From: Hahella ganghwensis DSM 17046
Lineage (GTDB): Bacteria; Pseudomonadota; Gammaproteobacteria; Pseudomonadales; Oleiphilaceae
DNA length: 43,849 nt
Assembly: GCF_000376785.1 (NCBI RefSeq)
Contig: NZ_AQXX01000086.1
Location: 1 to 43,849, forward strand
Direction: 5' to 3'
Both the position numbers and the translations under genes were made by a program. This document shows, piece after piece, positions 18,282 to 26,085 of the stretch (position 1 is its first letter; the number at the start of each line of letters is the position of its first letter). The notes under the pieces were generated by a model. The model saw only the letters and a list, made by a program, of their open reading frames with translations, was not told the DNA's origin and searched no databases.

Positions 18282-20528
18282 TTATTTGGTTGTGTGACGA
18301 TATACACCATCCCAGTCGTCCGGTAGCGATCGTTCCCGAAGCTCCCCAATACGTTCCCGGTAAAGCTGGTATAGCCGGCAATCAGGCTCCTCCAGTTGTA
18401 GTGTCAGGAGCAATTCATCTGCCTGTTGCCACTGCCGATCACGGTACAGCCTGATAGCTTCATGGTACCGTTCCAGACGTTCCAGAATGGTTTGTGTTAA
18501 CTGTGCTTTTTCACCAATGGGTTCATAGGCATTAATCGCCTCATCCTTACCCTTCACAGCTAACCGATCACAGAAGCGGAACGTAATACTTTCCGCTCCC
18601 CGGGCAGTGTCCTCTCCCACCAGGATATCCACGCCATAAAACTTGGTAAGCCCCTCCAGTCGGGAGCCCAGATTCACGGCATCTCCCAGCACGGTGTAGG
18701 CTTTGCGGTACTCGGACCCCATATCTCCAACATTCATAATGCCGGTATTCAGTCCGATGCCGATGCGAATATGTGGTAACCCTTCTTTGGTCAGATCCGT
18801 TGAAATCTTCCTGGTAATTGCCTGCATCTGTATCGCTGTCATTACCGCCTTCTCATGATGCAGAGGATCTGCCACCGGCGCCCCCCAAAATGCCATCACC
18901 ATATCGCCCACATATTTGTCTATCGTACCGTCATTTTGAAATATAGCCTCGGTGATAGGAGTAAAATAAATATTCAGCAGCTTCTTCAACTGGGAAGCGG
19001 ATAATTGTTCAGATATCGTGGTAAAGCTACGGATATCTGAAAACAACACCGTCAGCTCCTTGCTTTCACCTTCCATGGAATATTGCTCAGGATTATCCAG
19101 CATATGGCTAATATGCTCCGGAGGTACATATTGGGCAAACATGCCACGCAGACGTCTTTCCGTGGTGTACTCCCGGATAAATCCGGTGACCAGATACCAT
19201 CCGAAGACCCCCTGAGTGATCATCAACGTGCTGACCAAAGGGAATTCCAGATGCCACTGGCTCCATATCATCGTATTCGCACCAACCAGTACCAAAGTCA
19301 CTATCAAAGCACTCACAACCATCACAACCGGACGGCGACCAGAGAAGAGCAGTATGAGCAAAATCAAAAGCACACACTGAAACACCAGCAAAGCCCCCGG
19401 TTCCCAGACCGGTCGATAAGGGAACTCTCCGGATAACAGAGATTGCGCCACAACAGCATGAACTTCCACACCCGGGAAGGAGGTTTCAAATGGTGTACTA
19501 ACCAAATCTGCAAGCCCGATTGCCGAAGTCCCCACGAAAGCCAGCTTTCCACTGAGCTCCCCAGGCGCAAGATCGCCAGCCAATAGCCGCCAGGCGGATA
19601 TATAACGAAACTGACCGCGCCCCATCTGGTAGGGGATCAGCACCCTTCCCAAAGCATCCGTCTTTGCTGGTTCATCTGTCAAACGGATCTGGGACAGGGC
19701 CTTCACCTCGCCAACCTGCACAAAGTCCTGTTCCACTTCATCTATCAGAAGGTAGGTCATGACCGCTGCGAGCGATAGCGACGGATAGATGTATTCATTG
19801 ACAGCCATCACCAGAGGGGTTCGCCGGATTACACCGTCCGCATCAGGAAAAGTTGTAACAAAACCTGAACCTGTGGAGGCCTGTTCCAGATCCGGTAATG
19901 ACGCGGTATAGCCTCTTGCTTCAATTAAGACATGATCCGGTGGTGGAGACCCAAGCGGCTCCGACAGGATGCCGGTCTGAACGGATATTTCCGTATGCAG
20001 AAAAAAACCCAGCACGGAGTCCAGCGTCGTCAGTTGTTCAGCCAGAATATCATCGGCGCGCCAGCTCTTTGCAGCCCGTTCAAGAATTACCAGTTCTTCC
20101 GGGGTAAATAGTCCACGGTCATATTGCGGGACCAGATTCACGGATTCTGCTTCTGAAAGCACCATATCAAACGCTACAACAGTGGCTTCTGCTTCCCTCA
20201 AACGTTCTACCAGTGCCGCAATTTTTATCCGGCTCCAGGGCCAGCGTCCCTCCTTAAGGATTGATGCTTCATCGATATCGATAATAACTACATCTTTGCC
20301 GGGCTCATTGGAAGAAAAGTAAGCATCCAATTGCAGGCGCCAGTCATAAAAAATGTAATCCAGTCGATTCAGGAAAGACCGGTCACCTACCTGCGTGGTC
20401 AATTGCCAGAACATCATGATCAATGCAACCAGGACAACTGGAATATGTTTGGAGTATGCGAGGAGTTTTATATCGGTATCCTCCAATGAAATGTCGTTTC
20501 CGCTACGTGTTACTTCATTAGATTTCAC
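18282..20528 (-). CDS. CHASE2-domain class III adenylate cyclase
   Basis: A 748-residue membrane receptor cyclase. A first helix (about 31-47) leads to a periplasmic CHASE2 sensor domain (about 52-370), then three membrane helices (about 377-397, 400-422 and 428-450). The cytoplasmic class III catalytic domain (about 485-660) has metal-binding Asp498 (FSDIRSF) and Asp542, Lys538 (DKYVGD) and Asp616 (VLGDAVNLGSR) for adenine, plus transition-state Asn619 and Arg623. ATP rather than GTP is predicted. A helical TPR-like tail closes the protein. The start is a GTG without a strong ribosome-binding site; the next Met falls inside the first membrane helix. Its 74-bp upstream gap is shared with the divergent outer-membrane protein gene. 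Confidence 0.93.
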   Translation of the reverse strand: MKSNEVTRSGNDISLEDTDIKLLAYSKHIPVVLVALIMMFWQLTTQVGDRSFLNRLDYIFYDWRLQLDAYFSSNEPGKDVVIIDIDEASILKEGRWPWSRIKIAALVERLREAEATVVAFDMVLSEAESVNLVPQYDRGLFTPEELVILERAAKSWRADDILAEQLTTLDSVLGFFLHTEISVQTGILSEPLGSPPPDHVLIEARGYTASLPDLEQASTGSGFVTTFPDADGVIRRTPLVMAVNEYIYPSLSLAAVMTYLLIDEVEQDFVQVGEVKALSQIRLTDEPAKTDALGRVLIPYQMGRGQFRYISAWRLLAGDLAPGELSGKLAFVGTSAIGLADLVSTPFETSFPGVEVHAVVAQSLLSGEFPYRPVWEPGALLVFQCVLLILLILLFSGRRPVVMVVSALIVTLVLVGANTMIWSQWHLEFPLVSTLMITQGVFGWYLVTGFIREYTTERRLRGMFAQYVPPEHISHMLDNPEQYSMEGESKELTVLFSDIRSFTTISEQLSASQLKKLLNIYFTPITEAIFQNDGTIDKYVGDMVMAFWGAPVADPLHHEKAVMTAIQMQAITRKISTDLTKEGLPHIRIGIGLNTGIMNVGDMGSEYRKAYTVLGDAVNLGSRLEGLTKFYGVDILVGEDTARGAESITFRFCDRLAVKGKDEAINAYEPIGEKAQLTQTILERLERYHEAIRLYRDRQWQQADELLLTLQLEEPDCRLYQLYRERIGELRERSLPDDWDGVYRHTTK

Positions 20529-20602
20529 TCTCGGCTGGAAAAATCGCCCGAGCTTTCTAGACTTAATTGCATTGAAGGCTTTCTACATGGACAGCTCAAG
20601 GG

Positions 20603-21961
20603 ATGATTACTTCGCCGCTACTGACACCGGATAGGCCGCCAGGTTTGCTTCTGCGATTAAGCCGGGCTCACTTGCTGATACTCACGCTCACCTCCCTATG
20701 GTCACTTTCCTGCACAGCTCAGGACTCTCTAAAGCATAGTTCAATTAACCAGAGCCTGAAGGAACTTACTTCCACCGCAAAGTACGAGGATGCCTATCAA
20801 TTAGGCCTGGAGCACCTTGCTTCCGGTGAAGGGGATCCTACCTTCGATTTCTATTTTGGCCTGTCTGCACTGGAAAGCGGACACTACCCTGAAGCCCAAT
20901 TTGCTTTTGAGCGGCTGGTCGCACAATACCCTGACCAAGACCGCTTTCGCCTGGAGTACGCCCGCACTCTCTTTCTGTTGGAGCAATATGCCGCGGCCAG
21001 GGAAGAGTTTCAGAATGTACTGGCCAATCAACCTCCTGTTGCTGTCAAAACCAATATCAATCGCTTTCTGGATGTCATAGAAGAACGGGAAAACGAAAAT
21101 ACTCAGCAATTCAGCGGTTATGTGGACTTGGGTGGAGGGTTTGACAGCAATATCAACAATGCCACGAATGAACGCTTTATTGGACTATTTGAGCTACCTG
21201 ACTCCGCTCTGGAATCAGAAAGCGGCTATGCCGCCTTTCGAACAAACATGAATTACGGCCATTCTTATTCACAGATCAACTCCGCAAATGTGTCATTTAA
21301 CAGCCGCCACAAGCACAACTTTATCAACAGTGATTATGATCTCGACAGCGCCCGTCTGAGTGCTTTCTGGAAACATTCACTCACTTATCGTGAGTTACAG
21401 CTCGGTGGAGCGTATCAGCATATACTTCTGGATGCTGAAGACTATCAGCGCAGCACAGGCATTTTTGGCCAGTGGAAGGAGCAATGGAGTGACCATATAT
21501 TGACTTACGTATACACCGGCGTATCGATCAAGGACTCCTTCGCCAATGAACTTCTGAATGCCTACCAACCCATTGCCAGCCTGGCGCTTCTTGCCCCCTA
21601 CGACAAGTTAATTCACATTCTGAGTTTTATTACTGGTACGGAAAATCCCCGTACAGAAGGTGGCACTTACCTGGTGAAAGACTTTAACAGTGTCGGCTAT
21701 AAAGTCAGCTACCAGATATCCTCCAGCCTGATTCCATATCTTGGGGCATCAGCCTACTTTGCGGATTATAAAGACGAACACCCTGTCTTCGGTGACACTC
21801 GTGAAGATGAGTCCTATCAAGCCACAACAGGCGGAGAATGGAAAATCAGTAAAGACTACAGCGTACTCGCCGATGTCTCATATACAAAAAACTCCAGCAG
21901 TCTGGACATCTATGATTATTCACGCTGGAAGGGAGAACTGAGATTCCGCATGAAATTCTAG
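20603..21961 (+). CDS. TPR/beta-barrel outer-membrane protein resembling Slam/DUF560 (type XI secretion) proteins
   Basis: A 452-residue exported protein. After an unusually long basic N-region the signal hydrophobic core lies at about 22-38. TPR-like helices follow (about 55-160, with repeated small/large patterns and LEYARTLFLLEQYAAA). From about 165 the sequence alternates polar and hydrophobic residues, beginning SGYVDLGGGFDSNINN, and ends in LRFRMKF with a terminal Phe, the signature of an outer-membrane beta barrel. This TPR-plus-barrel architecture is that of Slam/DUF560 proteins, which export TbpB-like substrates. The next gene encodes such a candidate substrate. The ATG lacks a strong ribosome-binding site. 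The stop codon lies within the edge of a MITE. Confidence 0.72.
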   Translation: MITSPLLTPDRPPGLLLRLSRAHLLILTLTSLWSLSCTAQDSLKHSSINQSLKELTSTAKYEDAYQLGLEHLASGEGDPTFDFYFGLSALESGHYPEAQFAFERLVAQYPDQDRFRLEYARTLFLLEQYAAAREEFQNVLANQPPVAVKTNINRFLDVIEERENENTQQFSGYVDLGGGFDSNINNATNERFIGLFELPDSALESESGYAAFRTNMNYGHSYSQINSANVSFNSRHKHNFINSDYDLDSARLSAFWKHSLTYRELQLGGAYQHILLDAEDYQRSTGIFGQWKEQWSDHILTYVYTGVSIKDSFANELLNAYQPIASLALLAPYDKLIHILSFITGTENPRTEGGTYLVKDFNSVGYKVSYQISSSLIPYLGASAYFADYKDEHPVFGDTREDESYQATTGGEWKISKDYSVLADVSYTKNSSSLDIYDYSRWKGELRFRMKF

Positions 21962-22105
21962 GAAACCTCTGAAAAACGTTGGCGAGGCCGCCAGTGCAAG
22001 GAAAAAGTCGGAGAAAAAGCGCAGTTTATCGTGATTAAATGAGTATTTTGAGCCGACCTTTAACGCCGCAATGGCAACGCAGGTAGTTTTTCAGAGGTTT
22101 CCTAG
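21958..22105. mobile_element. MITE of about 140 bp with perfect terminal inverted repeats
   Basis: Left repeat 21955-21977 and right repeat 22086-22108 are exact reverse complements (23 bp); the core reads GAAACCTCTGAAAAAC. The outermost bases include CTAG on both sides, compatible with a 4-bp YTAR-type target duplication as in the IS5 group (a TA duplication is also possible). The interior encodes no protein. The pre-insertion site would have been ATTCTAGAAT, a palindrome containing the stop codon of the upstream gene, so the insertion left that protein intact. Confidence 0.85.
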
Positions 22106-22187
22106 AATATTGATATGTGGATTCTCAAATGCGCCATAATGTTTGACTGCAAACAAATTACGAGGTTTGCACCAAGAGGAAACCGCC

Positions 22188-24356
22188 ATGAACAGGCAAC
22201 TGACAAAAGCTTCCTTATGGATTCTACTCTGCCTCACCCCTGTCAGCATTCAGGTCCAGGCTGCTGCAGAGGCCGCCAAAGTCATCATGGCCCGGGGCAC
22301 TGCCACCGCTATTGATGAGCAGGGCGAATCACGCAAGCTGAAAAGACGCTCTGTGATCTATGTTGGCGATACCCTGTCCACAGGCGACGACTCGCTCATG
22401 CAGTTGAGATTTACCGACAAAGCCGTCATGACTCTCAGAGAAAACACTCGCTTTCAGATAGAGGAATATCAGGCAGGGGATGACAACAAGGGCGGTGAAG
22501 CCATTATGAAGCTGCTTGAAGGAGGATTTCGCACCATTACAGGCTCCATAGGCAAAGGCAGTAGCGACAACTACAAGGTCTCTACCAATGCCGCCAGTAT
22601 CGGTATCCGGGGCACCCATTATGAAGCCCTGGAAACACTGGGCAAGAAACTCCTGGTCGCCGTATGGCAGGGTGGTGTGAAATTGGAAAATCCCTCCGGA
22701 CAACTGAATCTTGGCCAAAATGCGCCTTTCAGCTTCGCGGAAATCGCACCGGGTAAAGCACCAACCGGCTTAATGACTCCGCCGGAGCAACTGCAGAAAG
22801 GACTCCCCCTTCCCGCCAGCCAGGCTCGACGTCCTGCAGCAAACAAGCAGGCTGACTCATCGGGCCAATCTTCTACCGAGCAATCTTCTGACGATCAACC
22901 TGCTAACGACCAGACTTCAACAGAAGCAGATGGAACGGTGGCTGACGGTTCCGAACCTCCACCTGATGACACCCTTGGGCCACTGTCGGAGAGCGAGTTC
23001 ACGGAATCAGATAGTTCTCTGGGTGACTCCGAATTGAATGATGATCCCCTGATTGCGTTAGAAGAGACAAATCCTCTGGACACCTTAACTCAGCAGGAAG
23101 ACCTGAATTTTACTGAGACTAACCCGGAACTCTCAGATACGCTCTCGGTATCATCCCAAGACCCCAGATTAACCATTCAGGAATTTGACCAGATAGGGAC
23201 TACCTCCACGCTCGGGGCCGGTGTCATTGCTGGCCCTAGCGAAGAGATTCTGGCAACCATCATTTCCATGCAGGATCCAACTCCGTTTAACTATTTAAGT
23301 GCGGGTTCTGTTAGCTTCGGCCTGCAATACTATTACGACACCCCCGGTTCAACTCCAATTTACACGGACGTCGTGATTACTCTTGAAAGCAACATTAGCG
23401 ATATCAATAGCCTGATCGCGGATATCGAAGATGAGTTGATCGCCTCAGGTGCTCCCGTAGGGGTTCGGGAATCCATGATGGAACCCGGCAAGTTGGAGTT
23501 TTATACCACCAATGGTGATGAAACCTTGCAATTCGGCATTGTCTTTTTTGATACCACAAGTTCGAGCGCCACGGATACAGACCTTTCGTCATCACTGGGC
23601 GGTATCATGACTGGAACCTTTGGTTTCGGCGGTATCGACCATGCGGGCTCAGGCACTATGAAGGTAGTTTACGACGCCAACGGCGAGCCAGTATTTCTAG
23701 TACCGAATGATGAAGGACAAAGCACCGGCTCGGGCCCACCCCCACCCGAGTTTATTGATCCAGCCAATCTCGGTAAGTATGAAGTGGTACGCCGCGGCGA
23801 AGCTGTGCTGACTGATTTCAACCCCAGCGTGGGCGGTCGTAGCAATATCAGTTGGGGCGTCTGGAATACCTCCGGGAATAACCCAGTTTATATTTACGAA
23901 GACCCAAACGACCCGTCCGTGCTGGCTAAAGAAAATGAAACTGTTTACTGGCTGACGGCAGAAGCAGCCAATTCCACAGAGTTGACGGGTACTGCCACCT
24001 TTGCCGCAACTCCAGAGTTTATTGGCAGTGGGTCTGACGGTATGGTGACCGGGGTCACCGGCTCTTTCGATGTTAACTTTGATTCCGGAGAAGTTAGCAA
24101 TGGCTCTCTGAATGTCATGACCGTCAACCAGACCTGGAATGTACTGATGGATGGCGCATATGAGAAAGCACAGGCCCACATGGACATTATTGACGGCCAG
24201 ATCAGTGGGTCAGTGAACTGCAGCAATTGCGTCAAAGGCAGAATGAGTGGGGTTTTTGTCGCGCCAGGTGACGCCTTTGCCGGAGGTTTTGATATGCAAA
24301 AGTTTGATGACAGAAATACTCATGTCGAAGGACTTATGCTCATGGAAAAACAATAA
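22188..24356 (+). CDS. Secreted FecR-domain protein with a TbpB-like C-terminal segment
   Basis: A 722-residue exported protein. The signal peptide ends at QAAA (about 27) and no lipobox or further membrane helix is visible. A FecR domain spans about 30-175 (GDTLSTGDDSLMQLRF, RGTHYE). A low-complexity acidic/Ser-rich linker (about 215-330) follows. The C-terminal 200 residues are Gly/Ser/Thr-rich beta sequence ending in SGVFVAPGDAFAGGFDMQK and VEGLMLMEK, resembling the small C-terminal barrel of TbpB-like, Slam-dependent proteins. The start was set at the Met at 22188, with AGAGGA upstream. The upstream outer-membrane protein would be a fitting exporter. FecR domains without a sigma/anti-sigma context are common next to CHASE2 proteins; the actual ligand is unknown. 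Confidence 0.8.
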   Translation: MNRQLTKASLWILLCLTPVSIQVQAAAEAAKVIMARGTATAIDEQGESRKLKRRSVIYVGDTLSTGDDSLMQLRFTDKAVMTLRENTRFQIEEYQAGDDNKGGEAIMKLLEGGFRTITGSIGKGSSDNYKVSTNAASIGIRGTHYEALETLGKKLLVAVWQGGVKLENPSGQLNLGQNAPFSFAEIAPGKAPTGLMTPPEQLQKGLPLPASQARRPAANKQADSSGQSSTEQSSDDQPANDQTSTEADGTVADGSEPPPDDTLGPLSESEFTESDSSLGDSELNDDPLIALEETNPLDTLTQQEDLNFTETNPELSDTLSVSSQDPRLTIQEFDQIGTTSTLGAGVIAGPSEEILATIISMQDPTPFNYLSAGSVSFGLQYYYDTPGSTPIYTDVVITLESNISDINSLIADIEDELIASGAPVGVRESMMEPGKLEFYTTNGDETLQFGIVFFDTTSSSATDTDLSSSLGGIMTGTFGFGGIDHAGSGTMKVVYDANGEPVFLVPNDEGQSTGSGPPPPEFIDPANLGKYEVVRRGEAVLTDFNPSVGGRSNISWGVWNTSGNNPVYIYEDPNDPSVLAKENETVYWLTAEAANSTELTGTATFAATPEFIGSGSDGMVTGVTGSFDVNFDSGEVSNGSLNVMTVNQTWNVLMDGAYEKAQAHMDIIDGQISGSVNCSNCVKGRMSGVFVAPGDAFAGGFDMQKFDDRNTHVEGLMLMEKQ

Positions 24357-24374
24357 TTTCCCATTCAGGCATTT

Positions 24375-24399
24375 CTCGTTTCCCTTCGGGTTAAACGAG
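24375..24399 (+). other. UUCG-capped hairpin after the FecR-domain gene
   Basis: CTCGTTT (24375-24381) pairs with AAACGAG (24393-24399) around a C(UUCG)G tetraloop. It has no T tract (AAAAG follows), so it is either a weak terminator or an mRNA end-stabilising structure between the FecR gene and the cyclic-nucleotide-binding gene. Confidence 0.5.
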
Positions 24400-24531
24400 G
24401 AAAAGTGAGATGGGCAACCAATTTTCCATACAAAGGGGTAGGACTTTTATCCCTTACGAACTTTCATGATACTTAACATAATTTTGATGTCTTACAACAC
24501 AAGTAGCGACAAGCATTGGGAGCCTTAGCAG

Positions 24532-25311
24532 ATGCAATTTCTAGACAGCTCTTCAGAAAAACTGACATCCCTTGGAGCCAATGTCACTCAGGCCAGTGTG
24601 CGCCTTTTCAACACGATAAAGTTGGTATGCGAGAATATCGAGATAGATGAAACTGATGATTTATATCGGGAATTTGAAGGGGATTACCTCTACTTTGTCG
24701 AAAGTGGCGAACTGGACGCCGTCACGGAAGAAAGCGCGGTATACAGTTTTGATCAGGGCGATTTGATTGGCATCCAGATACTTACAGGCTTTCCGGTTCC
24801 CATAATCCGAACAATGGGGCCGGTCACCCTGGCACGCATTGACAAGGAAACCTTCAAGGAAGTCGCCACAGGTTCACTGCAGTTCAAAGACTATTTACTG
24901 CAACTTTCCGCTTTTTTTGCCGAAGCCTGCTGCCATGGACTAGATAGCGCACCGGAAACCAAAACGTCCTTCAGAACTTATAAGGAAGGTGAAGTGATTA
25001 TCCATGAGGGTGATCCCGCAGAGGAAGTTTTCGATCTCATCAGTGGCCGGGCGACGGTTTATGTACAGGAACAGGAAGTCGGCCAGGTCAGCCCCGGTGA
25101 AATTTTCGGTGCAATGGCGGCTCTGACCAAAACGCCAAGAACGGCAACCGTCGTGGCCAACCGCCCGTGTACCGTGATGGCCGTTCCTATGGAAGAGTTC
25201 ACGACTCTTATCCGCAATCAGCCCAGAACCTGTCTGGCACTGTTGGAAAATATGGCCAAGCAGATTCTGGATTTGAACCAGAAATTGGTGGACGTATTAC
25301 AAAAGCATTGA
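24532..25311 (+). CDS. Protein with tandem cyclic-nucleotide-binding-like domains
   Basis: A 259-residue cytoplasmic protein. The C-terminal half (about 145-240) is a clear cyclic nucleotide-binding domain: YKEGEVIIHEGDPAEEVF, then GEIFGAMAALTKTPRTATVVA as the phosphate-binding cassette. The phosphate-binding Arg203 is present, but the Glu normally found in FGE is Ala194. The N-terminal half (about 20-125) resembles a second, degenerate copy (LYREFEGDYLYFVESGEL). There is no DNA-binding or enzymatic domain, so it is not a Crp-type regulator. Its position beside an adenylate cyclase suggests it reads cAMP from that enzyme, possibly as a regulatory subunit; this is inference. GGGAG lies nine bases before the ATG. 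Confidence 0.82.
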   Translation: MQFLDSSSEKLTSLGANVTQASVRLFNTIKLVCENIEIDETDDLYREFEGDYLYFVESGELDAVTEESAVYSFDQGDLIGIQILTGFPVPIIRTMGPVTLARIDKETFKEVATGSLQFKDYLLQLSAFFAEACCHGLDSAPETKTSFRTYKEGEVIIHEGDPAEEVFDLISGRATVYVQEQEVGQVSPGEIFGAMAALTKTPRTATVVANRPCTVMAVPMEEFTTLIRNQPRTCLALLENMAKQILDLNQKLVDVLQKH

Positions 25312-25413
25312 GACACGGCAAGCTCAATATGTGAGCCAGTCCAGAGCCGTTATCAAATGATTATCGCGATAATGGCCCCAAGGTGAATAAAAACAACATC
25401 AGGGATATTGCTC

Positions 25414-26085
25414 ATGAACCAAAAATCTCGCTTATTGGCAGTCACTTTATTCGTCACTATCAGCGGTTGGATTATCTACTCCATTTATCCCGCAGATCCC
25501 TCGCCATCGACCGTTGCGCCAAGCACAACCAGCACTGAACCTTCTGCGATCGCGAAAAAAGCGTCTCAACCGAGCACAGATAAGCAACCAGTCTATACCC
25601 AACCCCATTCAGATCCAGAGCTTTCAAAAAATGCATTGCTGAAACTCAGGGAGTATCAATCCCTTTTTGAAACCCGTGAAGACATACGCGACCTGATTGA
25701 GAAGGCGGATGAACTCGATGATCAGACCCGGCAAGAGAGATTCGAACAGCTGATCGCAGAGATGAAAGCACTGGAGCAGGAAAACAAAGTCACCTCAGCC
25801 GAGTCACTCCTTCTACAACTTGCCGCATTAAAGTTCTCCCCCTACCCCGAACAGGCAAAAGAACAGGGCAAGATCCTTATCGATCAATACAAGCAACTCA
25901 GCGAAGCCCGCTTGAAAGAGTTTCAGGAAAATCCTGATCCCAGGTTCGTCAGCTACAAGGAACAGGAAGCGGAAATCGTTAAAGAAGTGATGAAAATGTC
26001 CCACTATCCTGATGGATTAAGCCGGGAGAAATACCTGGCTCAACGGCTACAGGATTTGAGGAGTGAGGTTTATAAGGTGGATTAG
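25414..26085 (+). CDS. Membrane-anchored periplasmic helical protein of unknown function
   Basis: A 223-residue protein with one N-terminal hydrophobic segment (about 7-25), then a Ser/Thr/Pro-rich linker (about 27-65) and an almost wholly helical, Lys/Glu/Gln-rich domain (about 70-223). The arrangement and helix content recall lipase foldase or phospholipase accessory proteins (LifO/PlcR-like), but I cannot assign it to either. The ATG at 25414 is supported by AGGGA at 25401-25405; no lipase gene is adjacent. It follows the cyclic-nucleotide-binding gene by about 100 bp. Confidence 0.65.
   Translation: MNQKSRLLAVTLFVTISGWIIYSIYPADPSPSTVAPSTTSTEPSAIAKKASQPSTDKQPVYTQPHSDPELSKNALLKLREYQSLFETREDIRDLIEKADELDDQTRQERFEQLIAEMKALEQENKVTSAESLLLQLAALKFSPYPEQAKEQGKILIDQYKQLSEARLKEFQENPDPRFVSYKEQEAEIVKEVMKMSHYPDGLSREKYLAQRLQDLRSEVYKVD

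Follow-up and report, generated by a model that had tools for sequence, protein, structure and literature searches.

CHASE2 is a common type of sensor, and a locus of Hahella ganghwensis DSM 17046 raises the question of how a cyclase equipped with this sensor might learn of events at the cell surface. In the window, the stretch of 43,849 nucleotides analysed here (contig NZ_AQXX01000086.1, or C86, of a 6.56-Mb genome), four neighbouring genes lie within positions 18282-25311. They encode a CHASE2 class III adenylate cyclase, a protein with a TPR region and a beta-barrel, a FecR-domain protein, and a protein with two cyclic-nucleotide-binding (CNB) domains. This inventory had been drawn up in a first-pass annotation, and the open reading frames (ORFs), found at the positions it had given, and their Pfam matches agree with it, the cyclase being on the minus strand. 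In this study, we show by computation that the barrel gene and the FecR gene form a widespread, conserved pair with a genetic link to CHASE2 cyclases. We also propose, with modest confidence, that the barrel protein is a translocon of the type XI secretion system (T11SS), or Slam, family and the FecR protein its dedicated, non-lipidated partner with a cargo-type barrel, which may be exported and may signal to CHASE2.

The barrel gene (20603-21961, plus strand) encodes a protein of 452 residues. Like the FecR protein, it begins with a hydrophobic, signal-peptide-like core; a TPR match follows (TPR_19, 2.3e-8), and the barrel ends in a phenylalanine, Phe452. Its AlphaFold model, with a pLDDT of 92.5, has helices at residues 41-167 and exactly 14 strands in residues 168-451, so that a TPR region precedes a 14-stranded barrel as in T11SS/Slam proteins. 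Matches to TPR_Slam (3e-5) and BBP2_2 (3.5e-4) fell below the Pfam cut-offs. The assignment to the Slam/DUF560 family (PF04575, SlipAM), already proposed in the first-pass annotation, is supported by computation at the level of the family: it comes from relatives and from profile-profile comparison, because the single sequence misses the profile. The orthologue L052, 45% identical, scores above the PF04575 cut-off (27.3 bits against 22) and covers profile positions 4-288 of 288, and SlipAM matches 32 of 70 family relatives at E<=0.1, the relative set comprising 70 of 75 barrels. Against five PF04575 proteins, hhalign gave 99.6% over 279 of 288 barrel columns, compared with 1.6% for a control family of unrelated outer-membrane proteins. 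A PF04575 scan of the organism's own genome returned no matches; as 14 control genomes were also silent, this is uninformative alone. The barrel profile matched TPR proteins, OmpX and similar entries among PDB sequences, with none named Slam among the best 60 of 73, and no Slam appeared among the 50 VIA matches listed for the barrel model.

The FecR gene lies downstream on the same strand. Its ORF is listed from a TTG at 22143, from which 737 residues are counted, but the sequence points to the ATG at 22188 as the likelier start, giving a gene of 22188-24356. The FecR domain (PF04773, 1.7e-14) occupies residues 76-180 counted from the TTG (22368-22682), and its start is overlapped by a match to the NCBIfam family retention_LapA that remained below cut-off (1.6e-6, 28.4 versus 50 bits). 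The protein has a signal-peptide core and no lipobox. A hydrophobic core was likewise present in 68 of 68 barrel-adjacent FecR ORFs, as judged by a simple regular expression and hydropathy rather than by SignalP, with one lipobox-like string among them that we regard as chance. By the same measure, the protein has the Sec signal peptide of T11SS cargo and is of the non-lipidated type.

What makes this protein resemble cargo is its C-terminus, which the first-pass annotation had likened to the small barrel of TbpB and which is indeed modelled as an 8-stranded barrel (residues about 617-737, 23991-24353). All 24 Foldseek matches in the PDB at E<=0.001 are chains of the TbpB/haemophilin/HpuA/NHBA/fHbp type, and all 50 matches listed in a VIA search are TbpB, LbpB, HpuA, NHBA, fHbp or haemophilin entries. 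Model and fold thus support, by computation, a predicted barrel of T11SS-cargo type. By analogy with the description in PMC12282271, a strand-rich region modelled just before it (residues about 546-608, 23778-23966) may be placed like the handle or pedestal of T11SS cargo.

Evidence that the two proteins belong together comes from the recurrence of their genes. When the barrel alignment was run against GTDB species genomes, 110 matches were confirmed; the best 80 were kept, giving 79 named loci. Most of these come from Gammaproteobacteria, others from Betaproteobacteria and one from an alphaproteobacterial metagenome-assembled genome. FecR is the next gene downstream of the barrel in 66 of the 79, at a gap of -130 to 383 bases. 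The 13 unpaired loci include nine in which the barrel lies upstream of an aminotransferase-like gene (L053, L054, L056, L057, L061, L067, L068, L100 and L111), one that ends at a contig edge (L069), one with FecR upstream of a contig-cut barrel (L074), and two whose downstream genes look FecR-like by eye but are below threshold (L121 and L125). The reverse test gave a similar answer. The C-terminal domain is carried by 25 of 293 genomes of the order, and in 20 of these its gene stands directly behind a barrel, each case having been checked by ORF. Three of the five exceptions are cut by contig ends (G157, G162 and G335), G354 has no barrel there, and G111 has none within the 941 bases examined upstream.

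A sample selected by PF04575 only led to the same pairing. Among 229 genomes of the class, 23 match at E<=0.001, 17 of them over cut-off, and the barrel has a FecR ORF as its neighbour in 15 of the 23 and in 13 of the 17 (upstream in L264). The 27 stretches inspected cover 28 of 29 match rows, the one left out being a 35-residue row of G528 (E 6.8e-4). G528, G603 and G595 are three of the four over-cut-off genomes that have no adjoining FecR; in G528 and G603 the ORFs beside the barrel end, by eye, with what we take to be the motif of TbpB-type cargo. Genomes and named loci overlap in part (for example L050=G037, L051=G019, L053=G372, L087=G348, L108=G311), so these tests are not fully independent. 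Together with five of six genus members, they bear out the conserved neighbourhood that the first-pass annotation had expected. That annotation had named three grounds for abandoning its proposal, namely a barrel outside DUF560, a different fold at the FecR C-terminus, and the lack of a conserved neighbourhood in relatives; none of them was found. The apparent splitting of FecR from C-terminal-domain genes in L083, L086 and L267 resembles the effect of a frame break, so these were not counted as separate genes. As a separate observation, six of the nine aminotransferase-linked loci have a divergent gene for a small outer-membrane protein of about 270 residues upstream of the barrel.

The cyclase (18282-20528, minus strand, 748 residues) combines CHASE2 (PF05226, 2.6e-56) with a cyclase domain (PF00211, 2.5e-18). 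Alignment to solved cyclases shows that the motifs FSDIRSFT, DKYVGDMV and GDAVNLGSR are kept, so the protein is predicted to be a class III adenylate cyclase, with its CHASE2 sensor predicted in the periplasm and its cyclase domain in the cytoplasm. Within the examined flank, CHASE2 was present at 27 of 66 paired loci compared with none of 13 unpaired ones. In the sample selected by PF04575 only, it was found in six of 17 FecR-adjoining stretches (five of 15 genomes) and in none of ten others. The association also holds at the level of genomes: 24 of 25 genomes bearing the C-terminal domain have CHASE2, compared with 87 of 268 others (Fisher 2.4e-10, the genomes not being independent), as do 35 of 38 genomes with a strong barrel match (E below 1e-17; list read by eye from a table). 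Proximity of a gene for an outer-membrane barrel to one for a CHASE2 cyclase, a feature of NsrA-type signal receptors that is also present in S. meliloti, occurs in the window and in 27 of the 79 named loci. In L098 and L101 (Bermanella), a cyclase gene without CHASE2 lies about 4.4 kb from the barrel.

How might such a pair work? On our proposal, the product of the barrel gene would be an outer-membrane translocon, and the product of the next gene its dedicated, non-lipidated partner, with a FecR domain at its N-terminus, then a linker, and at its C-terminus the 8-stranded barrel that would mark it as T11SS cargo. In the periplasm, the TPR domain may catch this small barrel, which the translocon may then deliver to the surface. 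In a further and more speculative step, the periplasmic CHASE2 domain could sense FecR prior to export or while it takes place, so that the surface or export state would be converted into cyclic AMP (cAMP) by the cyclase. The double-CNB protein would be a possible cytoplasmic effector of uncertain ligand. If this is true, the pair would offer CHASE2 cyclases a physical route by which to learn of the cell surface. We are more tentative about the wider notion that T11SS serves more than nutrient-binding and adhesive surface proteins, and that a large T11SS branch in environmental Proteobacteria installs FecR-anchored envelope sensors. In these, FecR would remain on the periplasmic side as the C-terminal barrel crosses the translocon, and translocation or surface binding would be reported directly to a CHASE2 adenylate cyclase as secretion-coupled cAMP signalling; we regard this as less likely than not.

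Several results weigh against our proposal. The first-pass annotation had suggested profile searches of 20603-21961 against DUF560 and of the FecR C-terminus against TbpB-barrel profiles, and both succeeded only through relatives. The window barrel sequence has no PF04575 match in Pfam at E<=1, and SlipAM at E<=0.01 was found in only two of ten relatives examined singly; the match was obtained with relatives and by profile-profile comparison. The window C-terminal domain has no sequence match to TbpB_B_D, a profile that was detected in six of 34 relatives' domains, with one, L117, over cut-off. These 34 were drawn from 49, so that six of 34 is not a count over all; the 15 left out were mostly divergent Neptuniibacter/Amphritea-type domains, plus near-duplicates. 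Profile-profile comparison of the C-terminal profile with four canonical cargo tails failed (0.4%), its match to whole cargo proteins was weak (best 12.9 bits, with shuffles up to 5.9), and a single match to PDB sequences (E 0.22) is taken as chance. Moreover, 39 of the 66 paired loci, some with cut flanks, lack an adjacent CHASE2 gene, and FecR-CHASE2 pairing also occurs without such barrels (PMC5192318). FecR-only partners exist (L256, L257, L260 and L112), and at PF04575 loci a C-terminal domain could not be detected in many of the partners; FecR accompanies the barrel more steadily than the small barrel does.

FecR-only partners lend some weight to a different arrangement, a split trans-envelope receptor without full export. 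Here FecR would stay in the periplasm, with the small barrel docked in the larger one in the outer membrane or displayed on it, and the two proteins together would relay a signal from outside to CHASE2. This receptor would resemble a two-protein version of the NsrA-CyaK route of S. meliloti, where NsrA is an outer-membrane barrel required for CHASE2-cyclase signalling (PMC7529298, PMC13001267), and we hold it to be a real, if minority, possibility. A periplasmic role of FecR would be favoured not only by FecR-only partners but also by three genomes (L145, L152=L197 and L153) in which a FecR domain forms the N-terminal part of the TPR-barrel protein, each fusion being followed by a further FecR ORF, and by six genomes (L076, L081, L082, L087, L089 and L109; L136 duplicates L087) with a stand-alone FecR gene immediately before the barrel gene. 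However, L194 (G147:C1:1364000-1383000) has one barrel gene followed by a run of four different FecR/C-terminal-domain genes, and the FecR partners of L059, L060, L063, L064 and L114, about 2,300 residues long, carry seven tandem cargo-type C-terminal barrels. Such arrays and multi-barrel partners resemble cargo rather than the parts of a one-to-one receptor, and the closest folds of the small barrel are exported surface proteins; judged from sequence and models, all three features look exporter-like and favour export. Both sets of observations could be accommodated if the C-terminal barrel went to the translocon and the surface while the FecR domain was read in the periplasm by CHASE2.

An ordinary T11SS with surface or secreted cargo, whose expression the neighbouring CHASE2 cyclase controls without reading it, appears unlikely to us. 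The many examined flanks without CHASE2 and the divergent transcription of the cyclase in the window are in its favour; weighing against it are the contrast between paired and unpaired loci and the genome-level association, the retention of a FecR domain in the partner, and CHASE2-FecR pairing in other lineages (PMC9239204, PMC5192318). It is very improbable that the barrel is a porin-like BBP2_2-type protein and the FecR protein purely periplasmic, with convergent likeness to Slam and TbpB. In favour of this reading, BBP2_2 is detected in 49 of the 70 barrels at E<=0.1, and among solved structures the model comes closest to CymA and OmpG, both 14-stranded channels. Against it, SlipAM spans the whole L052 barrel while the BBP2_2 match to the window protein is confined to its last strands; the reading is further opposed by the hhalign result with PF04575 barrels and by the cargo-type barrel of the partner.

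Our preferred reading, a T11SS/Slam translocon with a FecR partner, has clear precedents and clear differences from them. T11SS/Slam proteins that serve TbpB, haemophilin, HpuA or fHbp share with the window protein the TPR region and 14-stranded barrel, and likewise have an adjacent partner with a signal peptide and a C-terminal 8-stranded barrel; in TXISS-1B that partner is soluble (non-lipidated), as in the window pair. Unlike in known T11SS, the window partner begins with a FecR domain and adjoins a CHASE2 cyclase instead of TonB or haem genes. In Campylobacterota, clusters of CHASE2 adenylate cyclase, FecR, TPR and phosphodiesterase genes have been proposed to form one likely pathway (PMC9239204). 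There, as in the window, a CHASE2 cyclase, a FecR envelope protein and a TPR protein are encoded together, but the published description, on which this comparison is based, mentions no T11SS barrel or cargo domain. In S. meliloti, the outer-membrane beta-barrel protein NsrA feeds the CHASE2 cyclases CyaK, CyaD1 and CyaD2 (PMC7529298, PMC13001267). Going by those descriptions, NsrA and the window barrel are both outer-membrane beta-barrels linked to CHASE2 cyclases, whereas NsrA is a single long chain whose barrel spans roughly residues 600-1200, and it is described with no small-barrel partner. The BiofilmReg operon of Burkholderia contaminans, as described, also encodes a periplasmic FecR-LysM protein beside a CHASE2 sensor, but differs in its histidine kinase output, its LysM domain and the lack of any outer-membrane barrel gene seen there (PMC5192318).

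CHASE2/FecR/TPR clusters are therefore already published (PMC9239204); within the literature searched, the new points are that the FecR partner is recognised as a T11SS-type cargo or sensor and that the pairing is so broad. Three papers on T11SS (PMC12282271, PMC8406197, PMC5449769) do not use the word FecR in their main texts, and no paper joining FecR with DUF560 or "surface lipoprotein assembly modifier" was found in the open-access literature, supplements excluded. T11SS research has centred on the iron-linked cluster 1 and the marine cluster 3, and a 2025 survey found a cargo barrel in only eight of 145 cluster 3 loci (PMC12282271). The same paper raises, as speculation, a role of T11SS in bringing sensor proteins to the cell surface. 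With FecR beside the barrel in most of the sampled over-cut-off genomes, the FecR-T11SS pair is a testable candidate for such delivery, and the ligands of CHASE2 sensors are described as mostly unknown (PMC5192318). Pathogens use such exporters for iron-scavenging surface proteins; the pairing in the window suggests that the export route may also serve signalling.

Within the genus, the pair is embedded in the larger block. The complete four-gene block, in the same arrangement, is present in five of six other sampled members, a recurrence that makes the arrangement more than chance; judged by the barrel protein, the nearest named relatives are Hahella sp. CCB-MM4 and HN01. One of the five, L035, also shares flanking genes with the window. 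In L036-L039, none of six other window query genes was found in the 19-kb stretches around the block; as these loci keep the block without those genes, the four genes behave as a unit. They do not form a single operon, because the cyclase is divergently transcribed. The sixth member, G042, lacks the block. By eye, its locus L042 (G042:C61:7000-22000) shows a TPR-barrel-like gene that lies beside a very large RTX-like ORF and is oriented divergently to another, different FecR gene and to a CRP-like regulator.

The fourth gene of the block (24532-25311, plus strand) encodes the double-CNB protein of 259 residues, in which PF00027 matches two stretches (cNMP_binding, 4.6e-29). The first-pass annotation had cast it as a reader of cAMP, a role that now looks doubtful. 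In the second domain, the cassette reads FGA...PRTATV where solved PKG domains have FGE...PRSAT: the canonical Glu is replaced by Ala194 in all six aligned sequences, while Arg203 is kept. In the first domain, inspection of the sequence reveals no FGE string and no clear cassette. Because the second cassette is FGA...R and not FGE...R, we do not file the protein as a cAMP receptor. Only members of the window's genus were seen to carry it; of the 79 named loci, 11 have CNB-fold genes, those outside the genus being of other makes, and seven small CNB proteins from Bermanella, Thalassolituus and relatives keep FGE...R.

In the window, barrel and FecR genes are separated by an element resembling a miniature inverted-repeat transposable element (21962-22101, no strand), which lies exactly at the barrel stop codon. 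It comprises 140 bp with 16-bp terminal inverted repeats and has CTAG on both sides (21958-22105 including flanks). The element stretch has 29 matches in its own genome, four of which, including the window copy, are 148-151 bases long. In L050 and L051 the barrel and FecR genes overlap or lie 13 bases apart, and the element is outside the conserved module. Scans of the window gave no Rfam matches at the gathering threshold, no tRNA genes, and no excess of promoters (6 versus 6.1) or terminators (6 versus 5.1) over shuffles. The gene downstream of the block (25408-26085) weakly resembles the phospholipase C accessory protein PlcR (5.8e-6, 27 bits against a cut-off of 99.1) and, among the five block-bearing genus relatives, recurs only in L035.

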